The notes under the pieces are model-generated. The model ran no database searches. It was given only the letters and a program-made list of their open reading frames with translations, and was not told where the DNA came from. A DNA stretch of 64,000 nt from Nilaparvata lugens (taxonomy: Eukaryota; Arthropoda; Insecta; Hemiptera; Delphacidae), in contig NC_052518.1 of NCBI RefSeq assembly GCF_014356525.2, forward strand, positions 6,367,162-6,431,161, written 5' to 3'. Positions 31,192-64,000 of this stretch are shown piece by piece (position 1 is the first letter of the stretch; every line of letters begins with the position of its first letter). A program made the translations under genes and the position numbers.

Positions 31192-31272
31192 CTGAAGAAA
31201 GTAATGAAATGTTGTAAGTTTATAAATATATCAATCATGCCAATGCAACCTAGCAGTGCAAGAAAAGGTTAC

Positions 31273-31960: not shown

Positions 31961-32419
31961 AGTTTCAATGGTATGGGGTCCAACATGTCTTTTATACATT
32001 GAGTAACACCACTCTTTGAATTCCTCTATATTGTCTATAAACCTGGAGTTAGTCTTTTACCAATTATTATTATCTATTATTACTAATAATTGTACTCCCT
32101 CTTCCATTTTTAACACAAGGAAGTTTATCAAAACAAATTCTCAAGTGTGTTCTGTTTTGTAGAATTTGAAAATAAATAATTCCTTTTCCTTTTTTCTCAG
32201 TTGTTGGTTTTAGCATACAGAAACTGAATACTATTTGGACATTACTATTAATTACGGATATTATAAACTGTCTCTGGTTCTAGTTTGGCCTTGGTTTACA
32301 TAGCCCACTGAAATTGTACACCTTTTCTTCCTTGGCAGTTTCAACTCTTCCAGACCTAGCTCTGTAATTTTTTCACATTCTAAGCACATAAGAAAACTTC
32401 TCATTTGTCCTCAGATTTT

Positions 32420-32866: not shown

Positions 32867-33164
32867 TTTCTCTATAATAATGTTGTAAATGAGAAAAAAA
32901 TAACATATAAAAAATCAACTATTGGCTATCTGAAACCTAAAATTATATCATTAGAAATATACCTGTCAAGTCATGAATCTCTATTCTCCAATAATAAGCA
33001 AATATAATAAAAATATAAACTCAATTATAATCAAATATAAACTCAATATTGTAGCAGAAACATTGAGATTAATGCGAATAAACAGCTGTAATATGTACTC
33101 ACCACTTTACCAGCTGGTAGGAGCTGTGAAACTGCTGCGATCTGTTGGCCATTCCGAAAATGAT

Positions 33165-35662
33165 TCATTTGTTTCCGTGCCTCCTTCTGAGGTGCCTCCT
33201 CTTCTTCTCCTTCTGAGGTGCCTCCTCTCCTTCCTCCTTCTGAGGTTTCTTCTTGTGTAATGTGTCCTCCTTCTGAGGTGTGACCCGTGCCTCCTTCTGA
33301 GGTGCCTCCTCTTCTTCCTCCTTCTTATGTTTCTTCTTGTTTAATGTGTCCTCCTTCTGAGGTGTGACCCATGCCTCCTTCTGAGGTGCCTCCTCTTTCT
33401 CCTCCTTCTGAGCTGCATAATCCTCCTCCTCCTCCTTCTGAGCTACATAATCCTCCTCCTCCTTCTCCTTCTGAGATGAGGTTTTCTTACTCACAGTGTA
33501 CTCCTTACTCCCTCTAGTAACTTTTAAACTACCATCAACTACTTTCAGGTAGTCAATCACGAAATCATCAACTCGTAGGTTCTTCTTAATTAAATTGTTT
33601 TTCAACTGGCCAAATTCTGTTTCAACAAATGCTCCAGTAGCTGTCTGGTACGGGCTACCCATTTTTGAAGCCAAGCAGTTGCTCCACAATGGTAGTATTG
33701 TGTGGAGTCGGATCAATTTGTTCAAAACTCCTGGAGAGTACATTATATTGTCTCGATCTCCATCATCAATAATATCTACCTCTATTTCTGCTATTATTTT
33801 TGAATACCATGAATGCATCCCTGTCTGACCATCCAATTCATCCAGGGTACTGCCATATACAGAATCCTCTTCTACTCCTCTCCATCACCTTCCTCTTCTT
33901 CTCTGTTGTCTTCCACAATCTCCTCTCCTGCAATTTTCTTAAGCAATATCATCTTGAATTTTTCACAAAAAGTTGCTTCACCTGTACTCATTGATAAACC
34001 TTCTGTTTCACTTAGAGCCACTACAACAATGCATATCAAAAGTTTTTCCACATCCTCAAGAGATGTCGATTTTGCAATTAGAATTATACATCTCATGTAA
34101 AACTCTCTGCTTCTTTTTCGGAGACATTTTATCTCAGACCACTTCCTGATTAAATTTGTTAAATGGGCCACATCAATTCTTATCAACACTGATGGCTTCA
34201 TGCTCTCATCTCCCTTCAGAAAGTAGAGGCATTTGTCCATGTAATTCATTGTTGAAGACTCTCCTCCAAATGTTCTGCATATGGCTGAGATGAGAGCTGC
34301 CGAATCATCTACAACGACCTCCTTTGGAATCGGTGCACCAGCTCGTGCCCATTCTGAAAGCCTATACGCTATGGCATTCGCATTATGCCTTTCCGAGAGC
34401 ATTTGCATCACTGGTATCAACCATTCTCTTGTACCAGGGATTTTGATTACACCAATATACAGGAAGATGTGTCCACTATGGGCTCCAGCAGGCCTCCATA
34501 ACTTCTTTACCAGAGATCCTGTTGCATCAATTACTACTCTAGCGTAATTGTTCTTGCAATAAATTTTATACATTTTAAGTTGATCTGGGGTAATCAAATG
34601 TAAAATAAATGGGTCCAACCCTATCTCTCTTACACTGTATTTATATCTAGTGTCTTCACTGTACTTCAATAATGCAAGTGCTTCAAGAGGATCGTCATCC
34701 ACTCTCCTTTTCTTTAATACCTCTTCCCTGATCTTTCTTCCTACCTCGTTGGAGGGTAGATGGGCTGGAATTGGATCGCCAAAATCCATAATGTCACTAG
34801 CAATATCCTTCCTCATCCTTGTGGCTTTTATGCCTCTATCTACCATCTCATCTCCAAGCCTTCTTCTACTCTCTCCCCTCAAGGGTCTATTCCGCACAAC
34901 TTTACTTTTTCCATGCTGCTGCTTGCTGCCGCTCACCTCTGCGTTCAGAAGCAGCCCAAAATCATCTGGATTTTGTGGAGGAGGATTGGGGCAAGTTATT
35001 CGTAGAACATTCCCACATGCACATTTTGCCCTTATCAATATCCAGAGGGAGGCATCTTCTCTCACACTAATATAATTTCCCTTGAATGACCAAGCACATG
35101 GCCACTTTATAGACTCCCATATTAGCTTATTAATCACATCAGTCCAAATTTCTGGTCGCAGAGCCATGTATTTTCTTGCGCGGCTCTGTTCAGCTTTTGA
35201 TCTATAAACATGCTCCTCAGGCTTTATAATACACCACTTTTCTTTAGGAATGAAAATTGTGAATGAAGATGATGATTCTTCTCGAGTCACTTCTTCGCTC
35301 TTTACACTTTCAGAATCTGTGTTATCAATAAGTTCTTCATAATAATTTGAATCTTCGTCTTCTTCCTTCTTGACGTGTTCTTCAAGTCTCTCCTCTTCCA
35401 GCCCCAACAGAGTTTTCAGATTCCGTCTATTACAAACGATGGAGGTGTAAAGAGCTTTTGGATTTTTCTCAATTTTGTGTTCTTCTTTCAATTTCTTCCA
35501 TACGTTGTCAGTAGGCCCCCGTAATTTGCCATCGGATATAATTCTATCTCTATTGGATATAAGAATATGCTCGATAAACTTATAATCATCCGTTGGCGGT
35601 CTACCTGTTTTGTTCTTCGAAGAGTAGTAGAAGATAGAAGAGTAATAATTATTGCAAGTCAA
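33165..35662 (-). pseudogene. Uncharacterised DDE-like transposase gene, best copy (block B)
   Basis: A single frame of 596 codons (33872-35662) runs from the N-terminus through the putative catalytic core: VIDATG (D379), VVDDSAAL (D452/453) and IRIDVAHL (D497, H500). Upstream are Cys189, Cys214, Cys216 and Cys224 in WPCAWSFKG / KCACGN / ITCPN, a probable zinc finger. One missing C near 33877 shifts the frame in an acidic stretch; the rest continues at 33165-33836 and a second missing base truncates the PQKE repeat tail. The lesions differ from those of block A, so the parental gene was probably intact when the segment was duplicated. A possible splice donor (GTGAGT) follows PAGKV near the C-terminus. 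Superfamily not recognised with certainty; MULE-like is my best guess. Confidence 0.6.
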
Positions 35663-36197
35663 TTCCTCTGAAGTATAATGGAATCATGAACAGGAAGAAT
35701 AATTATTATAATAAGTATGTAAGTAATATTCAAATCAGTTGATTATAGCAATAAAATGTATTTATTATGTAACATAATAGTGGGAATCTTTAATAACATT
35801 ATTACTTTAAAAACATCAATATTACTACTATTGAATACTATTATTATGAATTTATATAAGTATTATACGGAAATGTATTATTTCAGTGAATGACTAGGTG
35901 GAACATAGATGAATTGAAAAGGTTTAAGGCCAAAAAAGGCAAAAAATTGGAGAAAAACACTATCCTTTCAGAAATGTCACACCTTGAGGCTTGGATACCG
36001 GTATCTCGAAAACTATTACATATATAAAAAGAGTAGTTGAATAAATTCTGTTGGAAATTTTGAAACCATCATGAAGCTGGCCCCACCATATCGAGCCCAA
36101 AATTTGAAACATATGCCAATATTTAGGGCTTTTTTTGGGCCTCCAGAATAACCAAGTTTCAATTTTTGGGCTCAACTGGAGATGGGTTTCAATTCAC

Positions 36198-36345
36198 AGC
36201 TATTATATTATACCACTTTCAATTTTTGGGCTCGATAATCACGCCGTCAGCGGAGGGGAAGGGTTGTAGGTAACCAGGTCCCTTGCCGCCCCCAGGAAAG
36301 GTTGCCCCCAGGCACCTTGTTGCCCCCAAAAATATGATACAGTAA
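36198..36345. repeat. Dispersed copy of the viral-array spacer repeat
   Basis: The first 98 bp (about 36198-36295) are the reverse complement of the GC-rich repeat in each viral array unit, with shared gggttgtaggtaaccaggtc and ccttgccgcccccagg. The rest (gttgcccccaggcaccttgt) is related G/C-rich sequence. Block A lacks it at the equivalent place, so it was inserted, or lost from A, after duplication. Confidence 0.75.
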
Positions 36346-43834: not shown

Positions 43835-44273
43835 TTAACTTCTGAAGAAAGCTCTCTTCAGTATCCCACTCTAAAATGGCAATGGCCAATGGGGTGGAGA
43901 TAAAATGACATAGACGGCAATGACCAATAGGGTGATGAGAAAATGGAAAATTGTTAACATGGACATGTGAGGGTTGGCTCTCCATCCAAAATCATTCCTT
44001 CAAAGAAAAACATACTGGGGCCGCACTTGTAAAACAAGCTAGCAAAACAAAAGTCTATTCATGAATTCTGAAACTGAAAACGAGCAAACTAGGAGAATAT
44101 GCATGCTCAACTTTTGTTATTGACTATAGAAATGTATCTGCAGAGACTAGGGTCGATTCTATTGTAATGATTTTCAACATCTCCTTTGTTCTCTAAGAAC
44201 GCTTTAGAAACAAATGTGTCGGAGACAATTCTGATATATTGATTTTGTCACTTAGGCTGAATATCTTTAACTA

Positions 44274-45031
44274 TAGTTGGCCAAACGAAAATGGGTCCCT
44301 CAAGGTCAAAGCTTGCTCTTGACACCACCACCCGTCTCTACCAACACTGTTGCCACTTTGTACTAAGGGTGGCTAGTAAGAGAGAAAGTGAATGTGTGTG
44401 TGAGAGAGGGTGTGATAGTAAAGTATTGTTATTGTGGGGAGTATTGTTTGTCTTCTCTGTCCAAAGCCTGGTTGAAGTGTGATGGGAATCAAATGAGAAT
44501 TCATGCGAATTGAAAAATGCAGAGTGAAGTGGGCATTACAAGAATATCGACTAAAATAAATAAAATTACATCACTCCACTTCCAATTGATTTTTATAAGT
44601 CTTCAAGTAACCTTTATGAAGTAATAGCTCAGTTTATAAATAGTTGCATTTACAAAGAAAAATCTAATCATCATTATAAAATTGGATTTCTTGATGTCAT
44701 GACTCAAGAAAGAGTTATACATTATATATAACAATATTCTTTCCTTCATTTCATGATGTTGAAGAATATATCGGATGATGGGAGGAGGTAACGGAGGATG
44801 TTATTGTTCTAACTTCAAAGAATGACACAATAGAACTTTTGAACCTGACGTGCTCAAAAGAATTTGTGACAGGTAGTGTCAGAAAAGAGGAAGAGGGATG
44901 GTATGAGAAGGAAAGAGCGATGTTCAGGGTGTAGAAATATAGTCAATGTATATAGATTGGTCGAGTGAGGGGTGGCCACAAGTGGCAACATTGCAGTGGC
45001 CTTGAGAGACCCATTTTCGCTTGGTCAACTA
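44274..45031. mobile_element. MITE with TA target duplication
   Basis: The left end TAGTTGGCCAAACGAAAATG is mirrored by the right end CATTTTCGCTTGGTCAACTA, and the imperfect inverted pairing extends through the GTTGCCACTT motifs. TA flanks both ends (44272-44273 and 45032-45033). 758 bp, no ORF. TA duplication suggests Tc1/mariner-type mobilisation. It ends about 97 bp before the viral array begins. Confidence 0.75.
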
Positions 45032-45127
45032 TAACACATTTCTAGAAGAAGCCTTTTTATTTATTATTACTATTCTGAGCTTTCATGCCCAAAGATACCA
45101 CCTTGTGTCAAATTATCTTTAGATTCA

Positions 45128-46917
45128 GCCGTTCTGATACTTCCTTTAAGCTCGATTTCGTAGCGGGCAAGTCTACTGCTCCATTTTCCGAGGCGAATGT
45201 TAGTCTTGTTGGGTTCAGCTATCCAAGATGGGCGCCAATACCTGCCGTCCCATTCGGTCCGTAGTCGATTTCCCAGCTGGCACTGGTGGGGGACGCCGGC
45301 ACCACCGTACGCCGCTGGGAGGAGCATGAAGCCTAACGCCTTGTCTTTCTCTACACCAGCCTGCCTCGCATCTTCAATCATTAAAGAGCCCACCTTGTCT
45401 GCATCGGCTCCTCTCTGAATTAAAAGACTCCAAACAGAAATGCGACCGTATAGTCTCATAGGCTTGATTAACTCGGGTACTTTTATGGGATTCCGATAGA
45501 GGATCGAAAGCATGCCTCTTGCTCAGTAGCCAGTGATGGTATTTGGCTCGTAAGACTTACGCAGGAACTCGGCACATACGCGAGATATATACGTTTTTTC
45601 GGGATGGACGTCGTATCCTATATAAGCATACCAGTCGATAATCCTCACAGCGTCGCTATAGTTTGTGGTCGTGAATAGAATGTCGTCTCCCTGTGCAATA
45701 AGGTTGTCGTATTGCACCCTGCTTCCTTTTTCCTCTTGCGCAAGATCGACTATGACCAGGAAACTACACAGATTTAACATTGTGTCCAGGAGAGCGGTCC
45801 ACCGCCAGCCACTTGGCACTCCGTTCTCCCAGGTGGTTTCACGTGCTCCTACTTTTACAAGGGGAGGATGGTTAAAAATACTGTCGAATAGTACCTCAAA
45901 GTAGTGCTTGAACTCCGCGTCTGATGTATGAGCATGAATTCCGTCCTTTAAAGCGCAGAAGATGGCCTTGATGGTACCTTTGCTCTGCATATTATCAAAG
46001 GAACCCTGATCTAGAGGCACTTTATATACTGATGTAGACTCCATGAGATTGACCATGTGAATGTCATATTCTTCTTTTTGCTGCGCAGTCATAAACAATG
46101 AGGAGATAGGACAGCTCTTGAATCCTCTTTCAACCCACTGGGATAGGAAATTCATCATTCTGTTGGAGTGATCGCCACACTTCACAACTGGCCGCGATTT
46201 ACCCTGTTCACTTTTTTCCATGACGATCATGGTTTCACGCCTCACTTTGTTCATGTCGAGCAGGATGTCTTCATCATCGTAATAAACCCCCGCCACGGCC
46301 TTCATGCCCTTGCTTCTCTTTGTCTTATGGGCGATTTCCACGGTGGTTTTTCCCCCGGTTCCTGCTTTCCCCTGCAACCATTGGCCGGTGCTTATCCACT
46401 CGCTTGCTGTCAATGTTTGCTCAGGCGCATGCCACCAGGTATCGATGATGTACCTCATTTTGTCGTATATAAGGTTGCAGTAGTATTCCTCACCTATTCG
46501 CTGTCCTATAGGCTGCTTGTTGTGTAACCAGTCTAGCGTGTCTTCCCACATATTGTCCAAGCCGACATAAGGGTGGTAGCCTAACATGCTTTCCCAGTAG
46601 CAGAACAACCGCCAATGCGGCATCAGATAGGTTCCTCCTTTTTTATAGAGTCCGGTGACCTTCTTAAAATAAGACCGCAGCTTGCATAGACAGAACTCTG
46701 AACTGAGGTTTTTCCCTCGGTACCACTCCTCCACCAACGGCTTCACTTCTGCAGGGTTGGCTGTAAATAAGTAGAGATTGAAGTTATCTTCTAAAAAGCC
46801 TCTTTCAGGTAGTGTTCTTTGGATGTTTTTCGTGTTGAATCGTCGTAAGTATTGGATAAATTTAGGATGTTCACTGTTATAGGCCTTAGGGTGCTTGCAT
46901 ATGCAACATAACACCAC
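45128..46917 (-). pseudogene. Endogenous toti-like viral RdRp, array copy 1 (3'-truncated)
   Basis: RNA-dependent RNA polymerase of a non-retroviral RNA virus. The 464-codon upper segment (45523-46917) shows polymerase motifs in order: EQGKSRP (residues 236-242, motif F-like), DQGSFDN (A, Asp303 and Asp308), PSGWRWTALLDTMLN (B, 368-382) and QGDDI (C, GDD 410-412). TGA at 45523-45525 interrupts the frame and the same frame continues at 45513. Coding similarity stops at 45128, where unrelated sequence begins. Arrangement and motifs best fit toti-like dsRNA viruses (Ghabrivirales, perhaps the hemipteran Spissistilus festinus virus 1 group); the exact family is inference. Upstream, a TGA lies about 15 codons before the first GTG and the spacer follows; no capsid gene is seen. 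Confidence 0.88.
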
Positions 46918-46947
46918 TACAAAAGCATGTGTTTGAGCTCTATTTCA

Positions 46948-47221
46948 CCCTGGGGGCGGCAAGGGACCTGGTTACCTACAACCCTTCCCCCCTGCTGACG
47001 GCGTGATCATCGAGCCCAAAAATTGAAAGTGGTATAATATGATAGCTGTAGACTTGTTACATCAATTTCCATTAAATTATTATGAAATACAACTTCCCTG
47101 GGGGCGGCAAGGGACCTGGTTACCTACAACACTTCCCCACCGCTGACGGCGTGAATATCGAGCCCAAAAATTGAAAGTGGTATAATATGATAGCTGTAGA
47201 CTTGTTACATCGATTTCCATC
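46948..47221. repeat. Doubled GC-rich spacer repeat (unit spacer 1)
   Basis: Two direct copies, 46948-47082 and 47096-47221, each beginning ccctgggggcggcaagggac and containing cgagcccaaaaattgaaagt. They differ at several positions. The pair recurs in every unit (49896, 52844, 55792, 58740). The cgagcccaaaa core also resembles the ends of the foldback at 12541, so the spacer may derive from a transposon. Confidence 0.85.
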
Positions 47222-47408
47222 GGATTTTTCTTGATTACTCATACCCTGTGATATGATAAATCATATGTTTGACCAAAAACAAAACAAGTTCTTGGTTTTA
47301 TTTCAGAGCAAATTGCACAATTGGAGCAAATTTTCCTTACATCATCTACAGTATAGGGGAGATTTTTCATTCTGAGCCAGTGGTAGAAACGTAAATTTGA
47401 TCAAACTG

Positions 47409-49862
47409 TCAAATCTTGAAGTCGATGTCCGTTAAGACGGCATGTAAAAACATGTGGTTGAAGGTGTCAGGAAATCGTATTAAGTGACTCATCAAGCCAA
47501 AGAGGTCATATCCGGTAGTCAAATCCTGTGTTTTACGTCCGAAGGACGGCATGATGAAGCATCATGGGGCAAGGATTAAATCCTTAAAGATAATATCGCA
47601 CTGTTTCAGGTAGTACAGTTCCAGAGCGTATAGCCCGGACTCCAGGCTTGACAAAGTCAAGTTCTTTGTGTTCAGTAGTCTATGGCACCAATGCTGGCAT
47701 ACCTTCTTTATCTTAGCGCCGAATCTCGCCGAACGCAGGTCCGTGGCTGGAGCGGGTATGTTGATTTGCCCCAAGAGGTAGCGCCTATATACTGCTTTGC
47801 TCACCCTCTTCTTGTAGCTACGCAACCAATCGACAAACTGGGGATGAATGTATTTTGATTCGAGTTGATCCTCGATAATCTGCTGCTTTACGAACGGGAG
47901 CGCTTGAACAGCCACACCGTCGATGTTCCATAGCGTGTCAGGGTCGGGAACTGGTTCACATTCATGAAATACTTGTAGCTGTGCTCGTACATCGACTTCT
48001 TCCCAATCAAGCTGCACTTCCTTAGTCAACAGCTGTGGTGTATAGCCCCACGTTTGGAGGAGGTTCTGTTCAAAAGCCATTCTGATACTTCCTTTAAGCT
48101 CGATTTCGTAGCGGGCAAGTCTACTGCTCCATTTTCCGAGGCGAATGTTAGTCTTGTTGGGTTCAGCTATCCAAGATGGGCGCCAATACCTGCCGTCCCA
48201 TTCGGTCCGTAGTCGATTTCCCAGCTGGCACTGGTGGGGGACGCCGGCACCACCGTACGCCGCTGGGAGGAGCATGAAGCCTAACGCCTTGTCTTTCTCT
48301 ACACCAGCCTGCCTCGCATCTTCAATCATTAAAGAGCCCACCTTGTCTGCATCGGCTCCTCTCTGAATTAAAAGACTCCAAACAGAAATGCGACCGTATA
48401 GTCTCATAGGCTTGATTAACTCGGGTACTTTTATGGGATTCCGATAGAGGATCGAAAGCATGCCTCTTGCTCAGTAGCCAGTGATGGTATTTGGCTCGTA
48501 AGACTTACGCAGGAACTCGGCACATACGCGAGATATATACGTTTTTTCGGGATGGACGTCGTATCCTATATAAGCATACCAGTCGATAATCCTCACAGCG
48601 TCGCTATAGTTTGTGGTCGTGAATAGAATGTCGTCTCCCTGTGCAATAAGGTTGTCGTATTGCACCCTGCTTCCTTTTTCCTCTTGCGCAAGATCGACTA
48701 TGACCAGGAAACTACACAGATTTAACATTGTGTCCAGGAGAGCGGTCCACCGCCAGCCACTTGGCACTCCGTTCTCCCAGGTGGTTTCACGTGCTCCTAC
48801 TTTTACAAGGGGAGGATGGTTAAAAATACTGTCGAATAGTACCTCGAAGTAGTGCTTGAACTCTGCATCTGATGTATGAGCATGAATTCCGTCCTTTAAA
48901 GCGCAGAAGATGGCCTTGATGGTACCTTTGCTCTAAATATTATCAAAGGAACCCTGATCTAGAGGCACTTTATATACTGATGTAGACTCCATGAGATTGA
49001 CCATGTGAATGTCATATTCTTCTTTTTGCTGCGCAGTCATAAACAATGAGGAGATAGGACAGCTCTTGAATCCTCTTTCAACCCACTGGGATAGGAAATT
49101 CATCATTCTGTTGGAGTGATCGCCACACTTCACAACTGGCCGCGATTTACCCTGTTCACTTTTTTCCATGACGATCATGGTTTCACGCCTCACTTTGTTC
49201 ATGTCGAGCAGGATGTCTTCATCATCGTAATAAACCCCCGCCACGGCCTTCATGCCCTTGCTTCTCTTTGTCTTATGGGCGATTTCCACGGTGGTTTTTC
49301 CCCCGGTTCCTGCTTTCCCCTGCAACCATTGGCCGGTGCTTATCCACTCGCTTGCTGTCAATGTTTGCTCAGGCGCATGCCACCAGGTATCGATGATGTA
49401 CCTCATTTTGTCGTATATAAGGTCGCAGTAGTATTCCTCACCTATTCGCTGTCCTATAGGCTGCTTGTTGTGTAACCAGTCTAGCGTGTCTTCCCACATA
49501 TTGTCCAAGCCGACATAAGGGTGGTAGCCTAACATGCTTTCCCAGTAGCAGAACAACCGCCAATGCGGCATCAGATAGGTTCCTCCTTTTTTATAGAGTC
49601 CGGTGACCTTCTTAAAATAAGACCGCCGCTTGCATAGACAGAACTCTGAACTGAGGTTTTTCCCTCGGTACCACTCCTCCACCAACGGCTTCACTTCTGC
49701 AGGGTTGGCTGTAAATAAGTAGAGATTGAAGTTATCTTCTAAAAAGCCTCTTTCAGGTAGTGTTCTTTGGATGTTTTTCGTGTTGAATCGTCGTAAGTAT
49801 TGGATAAATTTAGGATGTTCACTGTTATAGGCCTTAGGGTGCTTGCATATGCAACATAACAC
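47409..49862 (-). pseudogene. Endogenous toti-like viral RdRp, array copy 2 (extra stop in motif A)
   Basis: Complete unit. Besides the shared TGA (48471-48473) and a second shared TGA (47562-47564), it has a private TAG at 48933-48935 immediately after the motif A SFDN residues. The frame resumes through motifs B and C (48471-48767). Below 47562 the same frame is open another 50 codons to a stop at 47409-47411, with protein-like content (FGLMSHLIRFPDTFNHMF), so the viral-derived region extends to there. Confidence 0.85.
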
Positions 49863-50356
49863 CGCTACAAAAGCATGTGTTTAAGCTCTATTTCACCCTG
49901 GGGGCGGCAAGGGACCTGGTTACCTACAACCCTTCCCCCCTGCTGACGGCGTGATCATCGAGCCCAAAAATTGAAAGTGGTATAATATGATAGCTGTAGA
50001 CTTGTTACATCAATTTCCATTAAATTATTATGAAATACAACTTCCCTGGGGGCGGCAAGGGACCTGGTTACCTACAACACTTCCCCACCGCTGACGGCGT
50101 GAATATCGAGCCCAAAAATTGAAAGTGGTATAATATGATAGCTGTAGACTTGTTACATCGATTTCCATCGGATTTTTCTTGATTACTCATACCCTGTGAT
50201 ATGATAAATCATATGTTTGACCAAAAACAAAACAAGTTCTTGGTTTTATTTCAGAGCAAATTGCACAATTGGAGCAAATTTTCCTTACATCATCTACAGT
50301 GTAGGGGAGATGTTTCATTCTGAGCCAGTGGTAGAAACGTAAATTTGATCAAACTG

Positions 50357-52810
50357 TCAAATCTTGAAGTCGATGTCCGTTAAGACGGCATGTAAAAACA
50401 TGTGGTTGAAGGTGTCAGGAAATCGTATTAAGTGACTCATCAAGCCAAAGAGGTCATATCCGGTAGTCAAATCCTGTGTTTTACGTCCGAAGGACGGCAT
50501 GATGAAGCATCATGGGGCAAGGATTAAATCCTTAAAGATAATATCGCACTGTTTCAGGTAGTACAGTTCCAGAGCGTATAGCCCGGACTCCAGGCTTGAC
50601 AAAGTCAAGTTCTTTGTGTTCAGTAGTCTATGGCACCAATGCTGGCATACCTTCTTTATCTTAGCGCCGAATCTCGCCGAACGCAGGTCCGTGGCTGGAG
50701 CGGGTATGTTGATTTGCCCCAAGAGGTAGCGCCTATATACTGCTTTGCTCACCCTCTTCTTGTAGCTACGCAACCAATCGACAAACTGGGGATGAATGTA
50801 TTTTGATTCGAGTTGATCCTCGATAATCTGCTGCTTTACGAACGGGAGCGCTTGAACAGCCACACCGTCGATGTTCCATAGCGTGTCAGGGTCGGGAACT
50901 GGTTCACATTCATGAAATACTTGTAGCTGTGCTCGTACATCGACTTCTTCCCAATCAAGCTGCACTTCCTTAGTCAACAGCTGTGGTGTATAGCCCCACG
51001 TTTGGAGGAGGTTCTGTTCAAAAGCCGTTCTGATACTTCCTTTAAGCTCGATTTCGTAGCGGGCAAGTCTACTGCTCCATTTTCCGAGGCGAATGTTAGT
51101 CTTGTTGGGTTCAGCTATCCAAGATGGGCGCCAATACCTGCCGTCCCATTCGGTCCGTAGTCGATTTCCCAGCTGGCACTGGTGGGGGACGCCGGCACCA
51201 CCGTACGCCGCTGGGAGGAGCATGAAGCCTAACGCCTTGTCTTTCTCTACACCAGCCTGCCTCGCATCTTCAATCATTAAAGAGCCCACCTTGTCTGCAT
51301 CGGCTCCTCTCTGAATTAAAAGACTCCAAACAGAAATGCGACCGTATAGTCTCATAGGCTTGATTAACTCGGGTACTTTTATGGGATTCCGATAGAGGAT
51401 CGAAAGCATGCCTCTTGCTCAGTAGCCAGTGATGGTATTTGGCTCGTAAGACTTACGCAGGAACTCGGCACATACGCGAGATATATACGTTTTTTCCGGA
51501 TGGACGTCGTATCCTATATAAGCATACCAGTCGATAATCCTCACAGCGTCGCTATAGTTTGTGGTCGTGAATAGAATGTCGTCTCCCTGTGCAATAAGGT
51601 TGTCGTATTGCACCCTGCTTCCTTTTTCCTCTTGCGCAAGATCGACTATGACCAGGAAACTACACAGATTTAACATTGTGTCCAGGAGAGCGGTCCACCG
51701 CCAGCCACTTGGCACTCCGTTCTCCCAGGTGGTTTCACGTGCTCCTACTTTTACAAGGGGAGGATGGTTAAAAATACTGTCGAATAGTACCTCGAAGTAG
51801 TGCTTGAACTCCGCGTCTGATGTATGAGCATGAATTCCGTCCTTTAAAGCGCAGAAGATGGCCTTGATGGTACCTTTGCTCTGCATATTATCGAAGGAAC
51901 CCTGATCTAGAGGCACTTTATATACTGATGTAGACTCCATGAGATTGACCATGTGAATGTCATATTCTTCTTTTTGCTGCGCAGTCATAAACAATGAGGA
52001 GATAGGACAGCTCTTGAATCCTCTTTCAACCCACTGGGATAGGAAATTCATCATTCTGTTGGAGTGATCGCCACACTTCACAACTGGCCACGATTTACCC
52101 TGTTCAATTTTTTCCATGACGATCATGGTTTCACGCCTCACTTTGTTCATGTCGAGCAGGATGTCTTCATCATCGTAATAAACCCCCGCCACGGCCTTCA
52201 TGCCCTTGCTTCTCTTTGTCTTATGGGCGATTTCCACGGTGGTTTTTCCCCCGGTTCCTGCTTTCCCCTGCAACCATTGGCCGGTGCTTATCCACTCGCT
52301 TGCTGTCAATGTTTGCTCAGGCGCATGCCACCAGGTATCGATGATGTACCTCATTTTGTCGTATATAAGGTTGCAGTAGTATTCCTCACCTATTCGCTGT
52401 CCTATAGGCTGCTTGTTGTGTAACCAGTCTAGCGTGTCTTCCCACATATTGTCCAAGCCGACATAAGGGTGGTAGCCTAACATGCTTTCCCAGTAGCAGA
52501 ACAACCGCCAATGCGGCATCAGATAGGTTCCTCCTTTTTTATAGAGTCCGGTGACCTTCTTAAAATAAGACCGCAGCTTGCATAGACAGAACTCTGAACT
52601 GAGGTTTTTCCCTCGGTACCACTCCTCCACCAACGGCTTCACTTCTGCAGGGTTGGCTGTAAATAAGTAGAGATTGAAGTTATCTTCTAAAAAGCCTCTT
52701 TCAGGTAGTGTTCTTTGGATGTTTTTCGTGTTGAATCGTCGTAAGTATTGGATAAATTTAGGATGTTCACTGTTATAGGCCTTAGGGTGCTTGCATATGC
52801 AACATAACAC
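50357..52810 (-). pseudogene. Endogenous toti-like viral RdRp, array copy 3
   Basis: 463-codon upper segment (51419-52810) with motifs A-C intact, a 299-codon lower segment (50510-51409) and the short third segment, split only by the two shared TGA stops. A substitution in the motif F-like region (GKSWP instead of GKSRP) is shared with copy 5. Confidence 0.88.
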
Positions 52811-53304
52811 CGCTACAAAAGCATGTGTTTAAGCTCTATTTCACCCTGGGGGCGGCAAGGGACCTGGTTACCTACAACCCTTCCCCCCTGCTGACGGCGT
52901 GATCATCGAGCCCAAAAATTGAAAGTGGTATAATATGATAGCTGTAGACTTGTTACATCAATTTCCATTAAATTATTATGAAATACAACTTCCCTGGGGG
53001 CGGCAAGGGACCTGGTTACCTACAACACTTCCCCACCGCTGACGGCGTGAATATCGAGCCCAAAAATTGAAAGTGGTATAATATGATAGCTGTAGACTTG
53101 TTACATCGATTTCCATCGGATTTTTCTTGATTACTCATACCCTGTGATATGATAAATCATATGTTTGACCAAAAACAAAACAAGTTCTTGGTTTTATTTC
53201 AGAGCAAATTGCACAATTGGAGCAAATTTTCCTTACATCATCTACAGTGTAGGGGAGATGTTTCATTCTGAGCCAGTGGTAGAAACGTAAATTTGATCAA
53301 ACTG

Positions 53305-55758
53305 TCAAATCTTGAAGTTGATGTCCGCTAAGACGGCATGTAAAAACATGTGGTTGAAGGTGTCAGGAAATCGTATTAAGTGACTCATCAAGCCAAAGAG
53401 GTCATATCCGGTAGTCAAATCCTGTGTTTTACGTCCGAAGGACGGCATGATGAAGCATCATGGGGCAAGGATTAAATCCTTAAAGATAATATCGCACTGT
53501 TTCAGGTAGTACAGTTCCAGAGCGTATAGCCCGGACTCCAGGCTTGACAAAGTCAAGTTCTTTGTGTTCAGTAGTCTATGGCACCAATGCTGGCATACCT
53601 TCTTTATCTTAGCACCGAATCTCGTCGAACGCAGGTCCGTGGCTGGAGCGGGTATGTTGATTTGCCCCAAGAGGTAGCGCCTATATACTGCTTTGCTCAC
53701 CCTCTTCTTGTAGCTACGCAACCAATCGACAAACTGGGGATGAATGTATTTTGATTCGAGTTGATCCTCGATAATCTGCTGCTTTACGAACGGGAGCGCT
53801 TGAACAGCCACACCGTCGATGTTCCATAGCGTGTCAGGGTCGGGAACTGGTTCACATTCATGAAATACTTGTAGCTGTGCTCGTACATCGACTTCTTCCC
53901 AATCAAGCTGCACTTCCTTAGTCAACAGCTGTGGTGTATAGCCCCACGTTTGGAGGAGGTTCTGTTCAAAAGCCATTCTGATACTTCCTTTAAGCTCGAT
54001 TTCGTAGCGGGCAAGTCTACTGCTCCATTTTCCGAGGCGAATGTTAGTCTTGTTGGGTTCAGCTATCCAAGATGGGCGCCAATACCTGCCGTCCCATTCG
54101 GTCCGTAGTCGATTTCCCAGCTGGCACTGGTGGGGGACGCCGGCACCACCGTACGCCGCTGGGAGGAGCATGAAGCCTAACGCCTTGTCTTTCTCTACAC
54201 CAGCCTGTCTCGCATCTTCAATCATTAAAGAGCCCACCTTGTCTGCATCGGCTCCTCTCTGAATTAAAAGACTCCAAACAGAAATGCGACCGTATAGTCT
54301 CATAGGCTTGATTAACTCGGGTACTTTTATGGGATTCCAATAGAGGATCGAAAGCATGCCTCTTGCTCAGTAGCCAGTGATGGTATTTGGCTCGTAAGAC
54401 TTATGCAGGAACTCGGCACATACGCGAGATATATATGTTTTTTCCGGATGGACGTCGTATCCTATATAAGCATACCAGTCGATAATCCTCACAGCGTCGC
54501 TATAGTTTGTGGTCGTGAATAGAATGTCGTCTCCCTGTGCAATAAGGTTGTCGTATTGCACCCTGCTTCCTTTTTCCTCTTGCGCAAGATCGACTATGAC
54601 CAGGAAACTACACAGATTTAACATTGTGTCCAGGAGAGCGGTCCACCGCCAGCCACTTGGCACTCCGTTCTCCCAGGTGGTTTCACGTGCTCCTACTTTT
54701 ACAAGGGGAGGATGGTTAAAAATACTGTCGAATAGTACCTCGAAGTAGTGCTTGAACTCCGCGTCTGATGTATGAGCATGAATTCCGTCCTTTAAAGCGC
54801 AGAAGATGGCCTTGATGGTACCTTTGCTCTGCATATTATCGAAGGAACCCTGATCTAGAGGCACTTTATATACTGATGTAGACTCCATGAGATTGACCAT
54901 GTGAATGTCATATTCTTCTTTTTGCTGCGCAGTCATAAACAATGAGGAGATAGGACAGCTCTTGAATCCTCTTTCAACCCACTGGGATAGGAAATTCATC
55001 ATTCTGTTGGAGTGATCGCCACACTTCACAACTGGCCGCGATTTACCCTGTTCAATTTTTTCCATGATGATCATGGTTTCACGCCTCACTTTGTTCATGT
55101 CGAGCAGGATGTCTTCATCATCGTAATAAACCCCCGCCACGGCCTTCATGCCCTTGCTTCTCTTTGTCTTATGGGCGATTTCCACGGTGGTTTTTCCCCC
55201 GGTTCCTGCTTTCCCCTGCAACCATTGGCCGGTGCTTATCCACTCGCTTGCTGTCAATGTTTGCTCAGGCGCATGCCACCAGGTATCGATGATGTACCTC
55301 ATTTTGTCGTATATAAGGTTGCAGTAGTATTCCTCACCTATTCGCTGTCCTATAGGCTGCTTGTTGTGTAACCAGTCTAGCGTGTCTTCCCACATATTGT
55401 CCAAGCCGACATAAGGGTGGTAGCCTAACATGCTTTCCCAGTAGCAGAACAACCGCCAATGCGGCATCAGATAGGTTCCTCCTTTTTTATAGAGTCCGGT
55501 GACCTTCTTAAAATAAGACCGCAGCTTGCATAGACAGAACTCTGAACTGAGGTTTTTCCTTCGGTACCACTCCTCCACCAACGGCTCCACTTCTGCAGGG
55601 TTGGCTGTAAATAAGTAGAGATTGAAGTTATCTTCTAAAAAGCCTCTTTCAGGTAGTGTTCTTTGGATGTTTTTCGTGTTGAATCGTCGTAAGTATTGGA
55701 TAAATTTAGGATGTTCACTGTTATAGGCCTTAGGGTGCTTGCATATGCAACATAACAC
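53305..55758 (-). pseudogene. Endogenous toti-like viral RdRp, array copy 4
   Basis: Upper segment 54367-55758 and lower segment 53458-54357. It shares with copy 6 the variants METMIIMEK-type (II instead of IV) and LRSTRFG, and with copies 5 and 6 YWNPIK and EFLHKS. Motifs A-C are intact and the two shared stops are present. Confidence 0.88.
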
Positions 55759-56252
55759 CGCTACAAAAGCATGTGTTTAAGCTCTATTTCACCCTGGGGG
55801 CGGCAAGGGACCTGGTTACCTACAACCCTTCCCCCCTGCTGACGGCGTGATCATCGAGCCCAAAAATTGAAAGTGGTATAATATGATAGCTGTAGACTTG
55901 TTACATCAATTTCCATTAAATTATTATGAAATACAACTTCCCTGGGGGCGGCAAGGGACCTGGTTACCTACAACACTTCCCCACCGCTGACGGCGTGAAT
56001 ATCGAGCCCAAAAATTGAAAGTGGTATAATATGATAGCTGTAGACTTGTTACATCGATTTCCATCGGATTTTTCTTGATTACTCATACCCTGTGATATGA
56101 TAAATCATATGTTTGACCAAAAACAAAACAAGTTCTTGGTTTTATTTCAGAGCAAATTGCACAATTGGAGCAAATTTTCCTTACATCATCTACAGTGTAG
56201 GGGAGATTTTTCATTCTGAGCCAGTGGTAGAAACGTAAATTTGATCAAACTG

Positions 56253-58706
56253 TCAAATCTTGAAGTTGATGTCCGCTAAGACGGCATGTAAAAACATGTG
56301 GTTGAAGGTGTCAGGAAATCGTATTAAGTGACTCATCAAGCCAAAGAGGTCATATCCGGTAGTCAAATCCTGTGTTTTACGTCCGAAGGACGGCATGATG
56401 AAGCATCATGGGGCAAGGATTAAATCCTTAAAGATAATATCGCACTGTTTCAGGTAGTACAGTTCCAGAGCGTATAGCCCGGACTCCAGGCTTGACAAAG
56501 TCAAGTTCTTTGTGTTCAGTAGTCTATGGCACCAATGCTGGCATACCTTCTTTATCTTAGCGCCGAATCTCGCCGAACGCAGGTCCGTGGCTGGAGCGGG
56601 TATGTTGATTTGCCCCAAGAGGTAGCGCCTATATACTGCTTTGCTCACCCTCTTCTTGTAGCTACGCAACCAATCGACAAACTGGGGATGAATGTATTTT
56701 GATTCGAGTTGATCCTCGATAATCTGCTGCTTTACGAACGGGAGCGCTTGAACAGCCACACCGTCGATGTTCCATAGCGTGTCAGGGTCGGGAACTGGTT
56801 CACATTCATGAAATACTTGTAGCTGTGCTCGTACATCGACTTCTTCCCAATCAAGCTGCACTTCCTTAGTCAACAGCTGTGGTATATAGCCCCGCGTTTG
56901 GAGGAGGTTCTGTTCAAAAGCCGTTCTGATACTTCCTTTAAGCTCTATTTCGTAGCGGGCAAGTCTACTGCTCCATTTTCCGAGGCGAATGTTAGTCTTG
57001 TTGGGTTCAGCTATCCAAGATGGGCGCCAATACCTGCCGTCCCATTCGGTCCGTAGTCGATTTCCCAGCTGGCACTGGTGGGGGACGCCGGCACCACTGT
57101 ACGCTGCTGGGAGGAGCATGAAGCCTAACGCCTTGTCTTTCTCTACACCAGCCTGCCTCGCATCTTCAATCATTAAAGAGCCCACCTTGTCTGCATCGGC
57201 TCCTCTCTGAATTAAAAGACTCCAAACAGAAATGCGACCGTATAGTCTCATAGGCTTGATTAACTCGGGTACTTTTATGGGATTCCAATAGAGGATCGAA
57301 AGCATGCCTCTTGCTCAGTAGCCAGTGATGGTATTTGGCTCGTAAGACTTATGCAGGAACTCGGCACATACGCGAGATATATATGTTTTTTCCGGATGGA
57401 CGTCGTATCCTATATAAGCATACCAGTCGATAATCCTCACAGCGTCGCTATAGTTTGTGGTCGTGAATAGAATGTCGTCTCCCTGTGCAATAAGGTTGTC
57501 GTATTGCACCCTGCTTCCTTTTTCCTCTTGCGCAAGATCGACTATGACCAGGAAACTACACAGATTTAACATTGTGTCCAGGAGAGCGGTCCACCGCCAG
57601 CCACTTGGCACTCCGTTCTCCCAGGTGGTTTCACGTGCTCCTACTTTTACAAGGGGAGGATGGTTAAAAATACTGTCGAATAGTACCTCGAAGTAGTGCT
57701 TGAACTCCGCGTCTGATGTATGAGCATGAATTCCGTCCTTTAAAGCGCAGAAGATGGCCTTGATGGTACCTTTGCTCTGCATATTATCGAAGGAACCCTG
57801 ATCTAGAGGCACTTTATATACTGATGTAGACTCCATGAGATTGACCATGTGAATGTCATATTCTTCTTTTTGCTGCGCAGTCATAAACAATGAGGAGATA
57901 GGACAGCTCTTGAATCCTCTTTCAACCCACTGGGATAGGAAATTCATCATTCTGTTGGAGTGATCGCCACACTTCACAACTGGCCACGATTTACCCTGTT
58001 CAATTTTTTCCATGACGATCATGGTTTCACGCCCTACTTTGTTCATGTCGAGCAGGATGTCTTCATCATCGTAATAAACCCCCGCCACGGCCTTCATGCC
58101 CTTGCTTCTCTTTGTCTTATGGGCGATTTCCACGGTGGTTTTTCCCCCGGTTCCTGCTTTCCCCTGCAACCATTGGCCGGTGCTTATCCACTCGCTTGCT
58201 GTCAATGTTTGCTCAGGCGCATGCCACCAGGTATCGATGATGTACCTCATTTTGTCGTATATAAGGTTGCAGTAGTATTCCTCACCTATTCGCTGTCCTA
58301 TAGGCTGCTTGTTGTGTAACCAGTCTAGCGTGTCTTCCCACATATTGTCCAAGCCGACATAAGGGTGGTAGCCTAACATGCTTTCCCAGTAGCAGAACAA
58401 CCGCCAATGCGGCATCAGATAGGTTCCTCCTTTTTTATAGAGTCCGGTGACCTTCTTAAAATAAGACCGCAGCTTGCATAGACAGAACTCTGAACTGAGG
58501 TTTTTCCTTCGGTACCACTCCTCCACCAACGGCTCCACTTCTGCAGGGTTGGCTGTAAATAAGTAGAGATTGAAGTTATCTTCTAAAAAGCCTCTTTCAG
58601 GTAGTGTTCTTTGGATGTTTTTCGTGTTGAATCGTCGTAAGTATTGGATAAATTTAGGATGTTCACTGTTATAGGCCTTAGGGTGCTTGCATATGCAACA
58701 TAACAC
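56253..58706 (-). pseudogene. Endogenous toti-like viral RdRp, array copy 5
   Basis: Upper segment 57315-58706 and lower segment 56406-57305. GKSWP and LRSARFG are shared with copy 3; NKVGRET and QTRGYI are private. Shared stops as in the other copies. Confidence 0.88.
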
Positions 58707-59200
58707 CGCTACAAAAGCATGTGTTTAAGCTCTATTTCACCCTGGGGGCGGCAAGGGACCTGGTTACCTACAACCCTTCCCCCCTGCTGACGGCGTGATC
58801 ATCGAGCCCAAAAATTGAAAGTGGTATAATATGATAGCTGTAGACTTGTTACATCAATTTCCATTAAATTATTATGAAATACAACTTCCCTGGGGGCGGC
58901 AAGGGACCTGGTTACCTACAACACTTCCCCACCGCTGACGGCGTGAATATCGAGCCCAAAAATTGAAAGTGGTATAATATGATAGCTGTAGACTTGTTAC
59001 ATCGATTTCCATCGGATTTTTCTTGATTACTCATACCCTGTGATATGATAAATCATATGTTTGACCAAAAACAAAACAAGTTCTTGGTTTTATTTCAGAG
59101 CAAATTGCACAATTGGAGCAAATTTTCCTTACATCATCTACAGTGTAGGGGAGATGTTTCATTCTGAGCCAGTGGTAGAAACGTAAATTTGATCAAACTG

Positions 59201-61371
59201 TCAAATCTTGAAGTTGATGTCCGCTAAGACGGCATGTAAAAACATGTGGTTGAAGGTGTCAGGAAATCGTATTAAGTGACTCATCAAGCCAAAGAGGTCA
59301 TATCCGGTAGTCAAATCCTGTGTTTTACGTCCGAAGGACGGCATGATGAAGCATCATGGGGCAAGGATTAAATCCTTAAAGATAATATCGCACTGTTTCA
59401 GGTAGTACAGTTCCAGAGCGTATAGCCCGGACTCCAGGCTTGACAAAGTCAAGTTCTTTGTGTTCAGTAGTCTATGGCACCAATGCTGGCATACCTTCTT
59501 TATCTTAGCACCGAATCTCGTCGAACGCAGGTCCGTGGCTGGAGCGGGTATGTTGATTTGCCCCAAGAGGTAGCGCCTATATACTGCTTTGCTCACCCTC
59601 TTCTTGTAGCTACGCAACCAATCGACAAACTGGGGATGAATGTATTTTGATTCGAGTTGATCCTCGATAATCTGCTGCTTTACGAACGGGAGCGCTTGAA
59701 CAGCCACACCGTCGATGTTCCATAGCGTGTCAGGGTCGGGAACTGGTTCACATTCATGAAATACTTGTAGCTGTGCTCGTACATCGACTTCTTCCCAATC
59801 AAGCTGCACTTCCTTAGTCAACAGCTGTGGTATATAGCCCCACGTTTGGAGGAGGTTCTGTTCAAAAGCCGTTCTGATACTTCCTTTAAGCTCTATTTCG
59901 TAGCGGGCAAGTCTACTGCTCCATTTTCCGAGGCGAATGTTAGTCTTGTTGGGTTCAGCTATCCAAGATGGGCGCCAATACCTGCCGTCCCATTCGGTCC
60001 GTAGTCGATTTCCCAGCTGGCACTGGTGGGGGACGCCGGCACCACTGTACGCCGCTGGGAGGAGCATGAAGCCTAACGCCTTGTCTTTCTCTACACCAGC
60101 CTGCCTCGCATCTTCAATCATTAAAGAGCCCACCTTGTCTGCATCGGCTCCTCTCTGAATTAAAAGACTCCAAACAGAAATGCGACCGTATAGTCTCATA
60201 GGCTTGATTAACTCGGGTACTTTTATGGGATTCCAATAGAGGATCGAAAGCATGCCTCTTGCTCAGTAGCCAGTGATGGTATTTGGCTCGTAAGACTTAT
60301 GCAGGAACTCGGCACATACGCGAGATATATATGTTTTTTCCGGATGGACGTCGTATCCTATATAAGCATACCAGTCGATAATCCTCACAGCGTCGCTATA
60401 GTTTGTGGTCGTGAATAGAATGTCGTCTCCCTGTGCAATAAGGTTGTCGTATTGCACCCTGCTTCCTTTTTCCTCTTGCGCAAGATCGACTATGACCAGG
60501 AAACTACACAGATTTAACATTGTGTCCAGGAGAGCGGTCCACCGCCAGCCACTTGGCACTCCGTTCTCCCAGGTGGTTTCACGTGCTCCTACTTTTACAA
60601 GGGGAGGATGGTTAAAAATACTGTCGAATAGTACCTCGAAGTAGTGCTTGAACTCCGCGTCTGATGTATGAGCATGAATTCCGTCCTTTAAAGCGCAGAA
60701 GATGGCCTTGATGGTACCATTGCTCTGCATATTATCGAAGGAACCCTGATCTAGAGGCACTTTATATACTGATGTAGACTCCATGAGATTGACCATGTGA
60801 ATGTCATATTCTTCTTTTTGCTGCGCAGTCATAAACAATGAGGAGATAGGACAGCTCTTGAATCCTCTTTCAACCCACTGGGATAGGAAATTCATCATTC
60901 TGTTGGAGTGATCGCCACACTTCACAACTGGCCGCGATTTACCCTGTTCAATTTTTTCCATGATGATCATGGTTTCACGCCTCACTTTGTTCATGTTGAG
61001 CAGGATGTCTTCATCATCGTAATAAACCCCCGCCACGGCCTTCATGCCCTTGCTTCTCTTTGTCTTATGGGCGATTTCCACGGTGGTTTTTCCCCCGGTT
61101 CCTGCTTTCCCCTGCAACCATTGGCCGGTGCTTATCCACTCGCTTGCTGTCAATGTTTGCTCAGGCGCATGCCACCAGGTATTGATGATGTACCTCATTT
61201 TGTCATATATAAGGTCGCAGTAGTATTCCTCACCTATTTGCTGTCCTATAGGCTGCTTGTTGTGTAACCAGTCTAGCGTGTCTTCCCACATATTGTCCAA
61301 GCCGACATAAGGGTGGTAGCCTAACATGCTTTCCCAGTAGCAGAACAACCGCCAATGCGGCATCAGATAGG
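59201..61371 (-). pseudogene. Endogenous toti-like viral RdRp, array copy 6 (5'-truncated)
   Basis: The upper segment begins at residue 99 of the full segment (60263-61363, PHWRLFCYWES onward) because the array ends at 61371. The lower segment 59354-60253 is complete. It carries several private changes in its upper part (for example LLNMNKV, GQQIGEEYYCD), consistent with an edge unit escaping homogenisation. Confidence 0.87.
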
Positions 61372-62275
61372 TTCTCTATCTGCTCTCCTGAAACAAATAA
61401 ACAGTAATAGTTGTTATTTAAAAACATCCATAGCTAATTTAAATATAGGCCTAATATTACTGTATCATGAAAAACATAGCAGTGTAGGCTATAAGTTACA
61501 AGTTTTATGCTATACAAGAAAAATCTGATGAAACTTGAAATTTATAACAGGTCATCAAAAAATGATGTGAAATAGCAAGTTTTAATTGCAGAGCGTAGCC
61601 TATAGCTTTCTTGCATGTTAATGTTTACATTTGCCAGTTGTTCTGAATATTGACTTCAAGTGCTACTTATGTAAGCGCTACATACATGCATTTGTGAACC
61701 CAGCACAATTGTATACTGAATACAATTTCATCAAATAACCTACTCTTCCCATCATATTCATCAAGTTCTATTAACTAAATTCAATTACTTTTTTCAGTAT
61801 TTGACAGTAGGCTATTGTTGAGTAGTTTATGGTAATCTTTTACAGATCAAAATGTTAGGCAACAGATTAGGATAATTTAATGTAGAAAAAGTCAAGAGTG
61901 ATAATTAATAAATGTGAATTTTAACTCCACATTCAATATACTTGAATAAAAACTTTCTCATTAAATTTGTCAAGTAATTAGTTTAGGCTACCGTGAAAAG
62001 AATCACAATGGTTCAGTTCAAAGCCACTAATCGGTGAGTGAACGATGAGATCGGTGAGTGAACGTGGCTCTGAACGATGTACTGTTTTGTCATTGAACGA
62101 TGCACAGACTCACATGCAGCGCTAGATTATTTGGAATTGAAATCGGCCATTAAGGGGACAGCCTGGAAGATTATTACATACTAGAGATCTTGAAGATTTT
62201 TGTGATCTATACTATTACAAAAAATATATATTATATAATATCTTGCGCTAAAATACCTCAATGGAACCTTGATTG
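61371..62275. repeat. Tail repeat with THAP exon remnant, joined to the viral array
   Basis: From ggttctctatctgctc onward it is a near copy of 17505-18430: the end of the THAP exon, its acceptor, then the tail repeat. The junction to viral sequence lies in a shared GGTTC (5-bp microhomology). At about 62275 (atggaacctt then gattggaacg) it stops matching; no Tigger sequence follows. Confidence 0.85.
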
Positions 62276-62991: not shown

Positions 62992-64000
62992 TCAAATTTT
63001 TTTTGATTTGTGAATTTGGAAAAAGCAGTCTTTGCACATAGTTTCATTGCACATGTTGCATTTCAATGAAATTCTTTTTGTTTTATTCACAGCAGCATTT
63101 CTTCCATAATCACTCATCATTTTCTTGTAACAGCTTTTGCAGCGTCCTCTTGTTGTTGCTATTAATTGTGGGGTGAAATACTTGTAGGTTGAGATGGGCC
63201 AGCTATTGCTGGTAAATGGGTTTCTGCTTCTCTTCTGTATTGCAGCCACTCATCAAGCCAGCTGTCGACAATCGCCTCCTTGAAATCTGTCAACTTCATG
63301 TGAGTGTTTGTCACTGTCTTTTGGATTGATAAAGCATTGACTACACATGTGTTGATAAGCAGGTCAAATGCAATTTTCTTGTACCATTTCACACTTTTTC
63401 TTAAACAACCAGAATGGTAAGCACTCATTTGGTCAGATAAGTCGATAAATGACTTTCCCTTGTTGTAATCAATCACCATCTGTGGCTTGGTAGTCTCCTT
63501 GCCATTTTTCACAGTTGTAACCAGGTCATCCACATGCTTTGTGCTGAGCATCAGAACATCTCTTCTATCTTTCCACTTCAATACAACGATGTTCTTCTCG
63601 TTTTTTTGAGCTACAACTCCTCCTCTCCTCAATCTCTTTTCAATCACATTTTTTGGGTTAAACTTCCGGTTTTTTCTCAATGTTCCCACAACATGTGTCT
63701 TATTTTGTAAAAGTGTATCAGCGAGTTTGACACTGGTGTACCAGTTATCAATATAAATTGTTCTTCCAAAGTTCAGATATGGTTCACTTAATTCTAACAC
63801 CACTTTCGATGAGACTTCTATACCAGCAGTTGCTTCTTTGCCAGCATATACTTTATAAGCTATTGTGTAAAAATCTTTCACACACAATTTAAAAATTTTT
63901 ATCCCATATGCGTGAGCTTTTGACTTATTGTACTGACGAAATATGATACGCCCTCTGAAAGGGACCATGCTTTCATCAATACACATCGAATTTTCAGGGG
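62992..64000 (-). pseudogene. PiggyBac transposase (PGBD-like), C-terminal part, frameshifted
   Basis: DDE_Tnp_1_7 transposase, continuing beyond the right edge. The frame 63162-63986 shows the catalytic Asp motifs: CIDESMVPFRGR (Asp4 of the visible part), TIYIDNWYTS (Asp80) and SFIDLSDQM (Asp182/Asp185). The C-terminal Cys-rich domain (RCKSCYKK, LKCNMCNETMCKDCF) is in another frame (62992-63249), so one indel lies around 63165-63200. It is a different, less degraded element than the piggyBac fragments of blocks A and B. Confidence 0.85.

Follow-up and report, generated by a model that had tools for sequence, protein, structure and literature searches.

A tandem array of 5.51 copies of a 2,948-bp unit, which carries a fragment of an RNA-virus polymerase, is located in the genome of the planthopper Nilaparvata lugens. 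The window analysed here is a stretch of 64,000 nt (assembly GCF_014356525.2, contig NC_052518.1, positions 6,367,162 to 6,431,161 of the forward strand), and coordinates refer to it unless another locus is named. Each unit is a three-part chimera of a viral RNA-dependent RNA polymerase (RdRp), a 148-bp satellite and pieces of a high-copy Ty3/Gypsy family. Since the unit contains host satellite and Gypsy sequence and lies on a contig of 105.7 Mb, the RdRp resides in host chromosomal DNA. The features of the array are listed below, with those inside the unit given for one copy.

45127 to 61374, no strand: tandem array, 5.51 copies of the 2,948-bp unit, from self-comparison
46895 to 46944, plus strand: Gypsy piece from the aspartyl-protease region at the RdRp 5′ edge, in the opposite sense to the RdRp
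46948 to 47248, no strand: satellite segment, two 148-bp monomers plus 5 bp (301 bp), again at 49896, 52844, 55792 and 58740
47249 to 49895, no strand: 2,647-bp insertion within the satellite, TG...CA ends, direct repeat CCCTG at 47244-47248 and 49896-49900
47249 to 47270, plus strand: 22-bp piece, 95% identical to the Gypsy element L044 at and just past the end of its pol frame, a possible start of a long terminal repeat (LTR)
47293 to 47391, minus strand: 99-bp piece, 100% identical to the integrase zinc-finger region of L044, at least 34 identical genomic copies
47392 to 47561, minus strand: stretch 3′ of the RdRp stop, matched in the array only, of which about 23 bp beside the stop align with the related locus L014; perhaps a viral 3′ untranslated region
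47562 to 49853, minus strand: RdRp of one full copy, matching amino acids 18-780 of protein P0001; further copies at steps of +2948 and one cut at 45127
45523 to 45525, minus strand: in-frame TGA inside the RdRp, position common to all six copies
61370 to 61374, no strand: right array edge, 5-bp microhomology GGTTC between the array and the right flank (flank paralogue at 17508)

The copies are arranged head-to-tail, with gap-free self-matches in the window at offsets of 2948, 5896, 8844, 11792 and 14740 and identities of 98.9-99.5%. Cutting the array at 2,948 bp leaves five complete copies and a sixth that measures 1,508 bp. An initial annotation, made without database searches, had described about 5.5 such copies at 45128-61371, and these borders are correct within 3 bp. 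Its proposal that amplification took place in host DNA after integration also holds, as non-viral satellite and Gypsy sequence occurs inside every unit. The six copies differ at 39 columns in a mosaic pattern with no indels, and their pairwise identities range from 98.74 to 99.63% (15 pairs). Both edges of the array are situated inside the RdRp, in different phases, so that the array does not comprise a whole number of units. With a tandem unit in the kilobase range, as in macrosatellites, the term “macrosatellite-like” fits the form of the array. No run of N occurs within it, the sole run in the window being located at 30043-30142.

In the copy tested, the RdRp aligned by tblastn over its full length with P0001 (780 amino acids) at 82.6% identity, and its stop at 47562-47564 falls where P0001 itself ends. 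P0001 originates from a contig of 6,276 nt, and its identity to the RdRp of the array is 79-83%. The Pfam models RdRP_4 (E values 2.4e-12 and 8.2e-11) and RdRP_1 (5.4e-7 and 3.1e-6) scored above their cut-offs in both N-terminal pieces examined; the two C-terminal pieces gave no Pfam match. Furthermore, when 12 sequences are aligned, the RdRp piece of the window carries DQGSFD, SGWRWT and GDD at positions that, for the most part, show almost no variation, and these we take to be motifs A, B and C. A protein search delivered 30 relatives at E≤1e-3, the best with 79% identity. The precomputed domain annotation lists PF02123 for 28 of the 30 and a reverse-transcriptase Pfam entry for none, and so no cellular or retroelement polymerase emerged as a better match, which would have spoken against the initial annotation. 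Only five relatives are named, namely two hypothetical proteins of Scirpophaga incertulas and three viruses (Corcyphos virus 2, Solenopsis midden virus and Linepithema humile toti-like virus 1). A viral collection gave five pattern matches and no true relatives, a sequence search of solved structures reached only E 0.11 at best (entries named 3D polymerase), and the window contains no Rfam match at gathering thresholds. Judged by its sequence, the RdRp of the array is of the totivirus type.

The RdRp frame contains 35 of the 39 variable columns, with 12 synonymous, 21 nonsynonymous and two stop changes (34%, 60% and 6%); one nonsynonymous and one stop variant among them lie just upstream of the RdRp match, within the Gypsy piece. 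Without selection, 27% synonymous, 68% nonsynonymous and 5% stop changes are expected when transitions are weighted fourfold. As the observed classes are near this expectation, no selection on the RdRp protein is visible. Copy 2 contains one extra in-frame stop besides the common TGA.

In every spacer, Tandem Repeats Finder detected the 148-bp repeat. Searches of the own genome covered 1.085 Gb in 6,870 contigs, and the spacer gave at least 433 matches on many contigs, array copies included (best 40 of 504 candidates scored, so that match counts are lower bounds). The matches listed beyond the array show 91-97% identity, are confined to spacer bases 3-307 and are found on contigs C1, C2, C4, C5, C6, C9, C10 and C15 as well as on unplaced contigs. 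At the seven satellite loci read, an 11-base satellite word recurs mostly at spacings of 148 or multiples thereof. Because short monomers are thus arranged head-to-tail in many arrays, the repeat represents satellite DNA. At undisturbed satellite loci, CCCTG runs straight into GGGGCGG in the contexts read, the searched word spanning this site. In the unit, the satellite stops at CCCTG, is followed by 2,647 bp and restarts with CCCTG, identically at all five junctions. The segment length of 301 bp, or 2×148+5, is what an insertion with a 5-bp target-site duplication (TSD) predicts. Ty3/Gypsy insertions have TG...CA ends and TSDs of 4-6 bp, and the insertion in the window shows TG...CA ends and a TSD-like direct repeat of this size.

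Gypsy sequence lies on both sides of the RdRp. A genome search with 47249-47561 (best 40 of 209 candidates scored) gave 42 matches, of which five are in the array, 34 are identical over 99 bp (bases 45-143), one has 99% identity over bases 41-143, and two of 51 bp adjoin two of the 99-bp matches. The pol frame of L044 (C1:70.05 Mb) matches the RNase H and integrase-core models, and its zinc finger reaches 24.9 bits with the zinc-finger model, below the cut-off of 25.5. By protein comparison alone, the zinc finger of the spacer is weak (Pfam E 0.13; 96 and 39 of 2,000 shuffles reach the score), and it was accepted because of the 99-bp, 100% DNA match to a Gypsy integrase. The protease piece consists of 31 bp at 97% inside matches of 42-53 bp at 87-93%, and the matches listed for it include dispersed ones on C1, C2 and C15. 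Of the three pieces, only that from the integrase shares the sense of the RdRp, the protease and 22-bp end pieces being opposed to it, a mixture which indicates that the chimera was rearranged. As the insertion has no complete LTRs, it was classed as a chimera and not as an LTR element. The initial annotation was thus right in calling the spacer non-viral but missed its nature, which is that of two satellite monomers with Gypsy pieces, TG...CA ends and a TSD. The L044 element is itself tandem with a period of 3,620 bp, and an overlap of 1,180 bp read twice is 99.9% identical.

A PF02123 scan of the genome resulted in 19 matches at seven loci, i.e. the window, C2:96.09-96.11 Mb, C7:51.75 Mb, C15:9.94 Mb, C3:26.57 Mb, C1:28.37 Mb and the unplaced contig C2029. 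A DNA search with 48075-49892 (best 40 of 210 candidates scored) added the unplaced contig C6454 and an 85-bp match at C1:57.11 Mb, and all listed matches of more than 85 bp outside the array stay at or below 81% identity. All four chromosomal loci nearest to the window lineage (window included; 72-100% DNA identity) are Gypsy chimeras, and virus and retroelement have the same sense at C7, C2 and C15:9.94 Mb. Tandem arrays were found at three of the six chromosomal toti-like loci (window, C2 and C3). This weakens the premise of the initial annotation that endogenous viral elements (EVEs) are normally single or dispersed, as do the tandem capsid protein (Cp) genes reported from yeasts (PMC2805616). 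One of the Gypsy chimeras, the element on C7, is located as follows.

L013 4259 to 8581: LTR-flanked element with LTRs at 2939-4224 and 8635-9920, in the order LTR, primer-binding-site-like region, RdRp, env, polypurine tract, LTR

Its LTRs comprise 1,286 bp each, begin and end with TG...CA, differ at four positions and are bordered by a 4-bp TSD (ATAA); with a few outer bases included, the aligned repeats measure 1,293 bp with six differences. The single open frame of 1,441 codons matches RdRP_4 and the env-like Baculo_F. Searching the genome with this LTR (best 40 of 99 candidates scored) listed 80 matches, among which seven pairs lie on the same strand at distances of 6.9-9.4 kb. Frames for gag, pol and env are present in a relative at C15:40.64 Mb; those other than env match the models for zinc knuckle, RVT_1, RNase H and integrase, and the env frame reaches 19.3 bits with Baculo_F, below the cut-off of 24.1. 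The two elements agree in the 14 bases that follow the 5′ LTR and, at 92.4%, in a 1.6-kb stretch containing env and the polypurine tract. Compared with this relative, viral sequence occupies the place of gag and pol in the C7 element, which is therefore non-autonomous. With paired LTRs, a TSD, and a putative primer-binding site and polypurine tract, the latter two called from their position and from sharing with the relative, it belongs to the Ty3/Gypsy LTR elements. Among the best 7,997 candidates by shared words, length-filtered, no other RdRp-env fusion protein was found at E≤1e-3.

At C15:9.94 Mb, about 4.9 kb are situated between Gypsy RNase H and integrase. A nearby inverted copy of this Gypsy element lacks the 4.9 kb, with 91 bp replaced, and has its own interruption of about 1 kb elsewhere. 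Direct repeats of 91% identity, possible LTRs, surround the whole. A 538-amino-acid frame upstream of the RdRp at this locus (L014), considered as a capsid candidate, has no homologue at E≤1e-3 among 7,676 candidates. The RdRp at L014 4160-5749 carries GND where the other rows covering the site carry GDD. At C2, RdRp residues 286-720 are inserted in a Gypsy reverse transcriptase, the reading of which picks up after the insert. This unit is tandem as well, with nine copies from residue 286, some of them interrupted, and one with residues 479-720 only; the main period is 2,349 bp and the pieces are 98.6-100% identical. The C3 locus (L016 and L023; 26.57-26.58 Mb) represents an older lineage with 38-54% amino acid identity to P0001 and contains the third tandem array, consisting of three copies of 1.7-2.1 kb at 96.6-98.0% and fragments.

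Comparison of the window, C7, C15:9.94 Mb and C2 by the Nei–Gojobori method (NG86), on pieces only, gave a synonymous distance (dS) of 1.08 in one of 12 comparisons and a dS past saturation, and thus not computable, in the other 11, with nonsynonymous distances (dN) of 0.04-0.13. Such values at or beyond saturation together with low dN indicate that the divergence arose under strong constraint in viruses, and that the loci descend from different virus lineages by separate captures. In a phylogenetic tree, P0001 nests within the endogenous set (99/99); 17 of the 29 inner branches are starred, the tree omits P0029 and P0030 of the 30 proteins, and C2 covers only 26% of the columns. Should P0001 be exogenous, the starred branches would require at least two captures.

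Taken together, the array probably arose by retrotransposon-mediated capture, insertion into a satellite, amplification and subsequent neutral decay. RNA of a toti-like virus would have become linked to Ty3/Gypsy sequence, most likely when the Gypsy reverse transcriptase switched templates. The resulting DNA chimera would then have been put into a 148-bp satellite monomer, most likely by the Gypsy integrase, leaving the 5-bp TSD. The insertion and two adjoining monomers may have been multiplied either through unequal exchange between monomers or through excision of a circle that was copied in rolling-circle fashion. As the block lies outside satellite DNA and both of its ends are cut in the RdRp, these 5.5 units would have been re-inserted or trimmed, and the copies would have drifted neutrally afterwards. 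This course of events is favoured because of the identity and dispersal of the satellite, the CCCTG and TG...CA junctions, the Gypsy pieces flanking the RdRp and the independent chimeras at C7, C2 and C15:9.94 Mb, with the paired LTRs and TSD of the first. The neutral-looking variation among the copies, the saturated dS between loci and the position of P0001 in the tree also speak for it.

Several points weigh against it. Chance alone could yield a 5-bp direct repeat, the Gypsy pieces measure no more than 22, 99 and about 31-53 bp and are of mixed orientation, and the insertion is without full LTRs, one end having just 22 bp similar to the region following pol. No Gypsy junction came to light at the two older chromosomal loci, C3 and C1:28.37 Mb, or in the unplaced fragments such as C2029. 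The flanks of the array are non-satellite and the only other satellite sequence in the window is a single fragment at 36196-36300, so that the step of re-insertion or trimming is a free assumption. Finally, other tandem duplications abound in the genome, so that being tandem is not remarkable by itself and amplification need not involve the satellite.

This last point leads to the foremost competing explanation, in which a host segment that chanced to hold an EVE was duplicated in tandem by an ordinary local event, the satellite taking no part in the amplification. It is a serious alternative, albeit a less probable one. In the window, the copies of another duplicated segment are separated by about 23.5-23.9 kb, units of about 2.1 kb form a further array, and direct repeats of at least 500 bp and at least 85% identity occur in five of 14 stretches adjoining toti-like loci, some of these stretches including an array end or array fragments. 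However, duplication in situ lets expect whole units and native flanks, and the array has 5.51 units and edges inside the RdRp. Another alternative is that selection keeps the array as a source of antiviral PIWI-interacting RNAs (piRNAs), which we consider somewhat doubtful. According to the accessible part of a published survey, most planthopper toti-like EVEs yield small RNAs of 24-29 nt in the ovary, the locus in the window being unmatched to a numbered EVE (PMC10636211). The variation of the array looks neutral, although a small-RNA source requires no open frame, and any present effect would more likely be exerted via small RNAs than via a protein. It is very improbable that the assembler multiplied one or a few units, in view of the mosaic pattern of the 39 variable columns, the lack of N inside the array, the two further arrays with other viral lineages and different units, and the absence of near-identical copies on unplaced contigs among the matches listed for the RdRp. 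Least credible of all is a selected host protein, for which only the open stretches of 469 and 302 codons side by side in three copies could speak, given a TGA in frame in six of six copies, an extra stop in one and no clear synonymous excess.

The entry of RNA viruses into animal germlines is usually deduced from nearby retrotransposons. Here, junctions, TSDs, an insert-free retroelement copy and full LTRs in one genome make the capture route readable nearly step by step. The array suggests how a virus gene enters an animal genome and spreads in it, with satellite DNA as landing site and possible amplifier. More speculatively, Gypsy elements of this insect lineage may repeatedly take up toti-like polymerases, some being mobilised as on C7 and others landing in satellite or pol and forming arrays, which might constitute a regular route for banking RNA-virus sequence in the germline and possibly a small-RNA memory. 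One might tentatively liken this to retroviruses taking up cellular genes. Such arrays might feed antiviral small RNAs. Insect LINEs (long interspersed nuclear elements) have reportedly captured viral helicase domains.

Toti-like EVEs of planthoppers (NlToEVEs) have been published, with ovary small RNAs for the majority (PMC10636211). Similar to our loci, they comprise pieces of toti-like RdRp or capsid protein, several are located on Chr2 and ChrX, and a piggyBac element lies between two on Chr2; neither “tandem” nor “array” is used in the main text, and in the accessible part no Gypsy or satellite chimera was found described (PMC10636211). By our own reasoning, one NlToEVE of 10,814 nt in that survey may be an array (PMC10636211). 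The totivirus-like Cp genes of yeasts are likewise tandem after integration but, as far as the available part of the report goes, number two to four copies, are largely divergent (two Debaryomyces hansenii copies are close) and are under purifying selection, with no satellite or LTR-element junctions found described (PMC2805616). In Aedes, non-retroviral integrated RNA virus sequences are associated with Ty3/gypsy elements, template switching has been proposed and one bunya-like integration is embedded in a full-length Pao-Bel element; a satellite-borne array or an RdRp-env LTR element was not found described in the part consulted (PMC5497376). The Anakin BEL-Pao elements, as far as the source could be accessed, resemble the C7 element in that an RNA-virus gene within LTRs was mobilised. 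They carry a chuvirus glycoprotein and exist as complete copies, whereas on C7 an RdRp replaces gag-pol in a Gypsy element keeping env (PMC7642597). A shrimp EVE of infectious hypodermal and haematopoietic necrosis virus likewise forms a block of repeated viral sequence within the genome of an arthropod but, from the part available, stems from a DNA virus and is jumbled, with 661-bp units of inward-facing parts (PMC8982415). No report of a tandem architecture of RdRp, Gypsy and satellite was found in a search of the open-access literature, the sources being available in part.

Further repeats surround the array. The large duplication covers 2183-12681 and 26056-36204 with 98.8-99.1% identity over its three longest pieces, and the gap of 100 N at 30043-30142 lies between its pieces. 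The units of about 2.1 kb occupy 17500-25900 and 61375-62270, and the right flank of the array is a copy of part of this repeat region. Pairing of the flanks with 14.7-18.4 kb as an empty site was rejected, because the match on the left belongs to a repeat copy that stops at an inverted repeat and the one on the right to a repeat family. A MITE-like element (miniature inverted-repeat transposable element) bounded by inverted repeats is located at 44268-45036, just left of the array. Transposase frames of the DDE_Tnp_1_7 family, presumably piggyBac-type, are found close to the array (63162-63998) and to that on C2 (L009 8435-8938), and a DDE_Tnp_4 transposase frame lies at 15647-16162.

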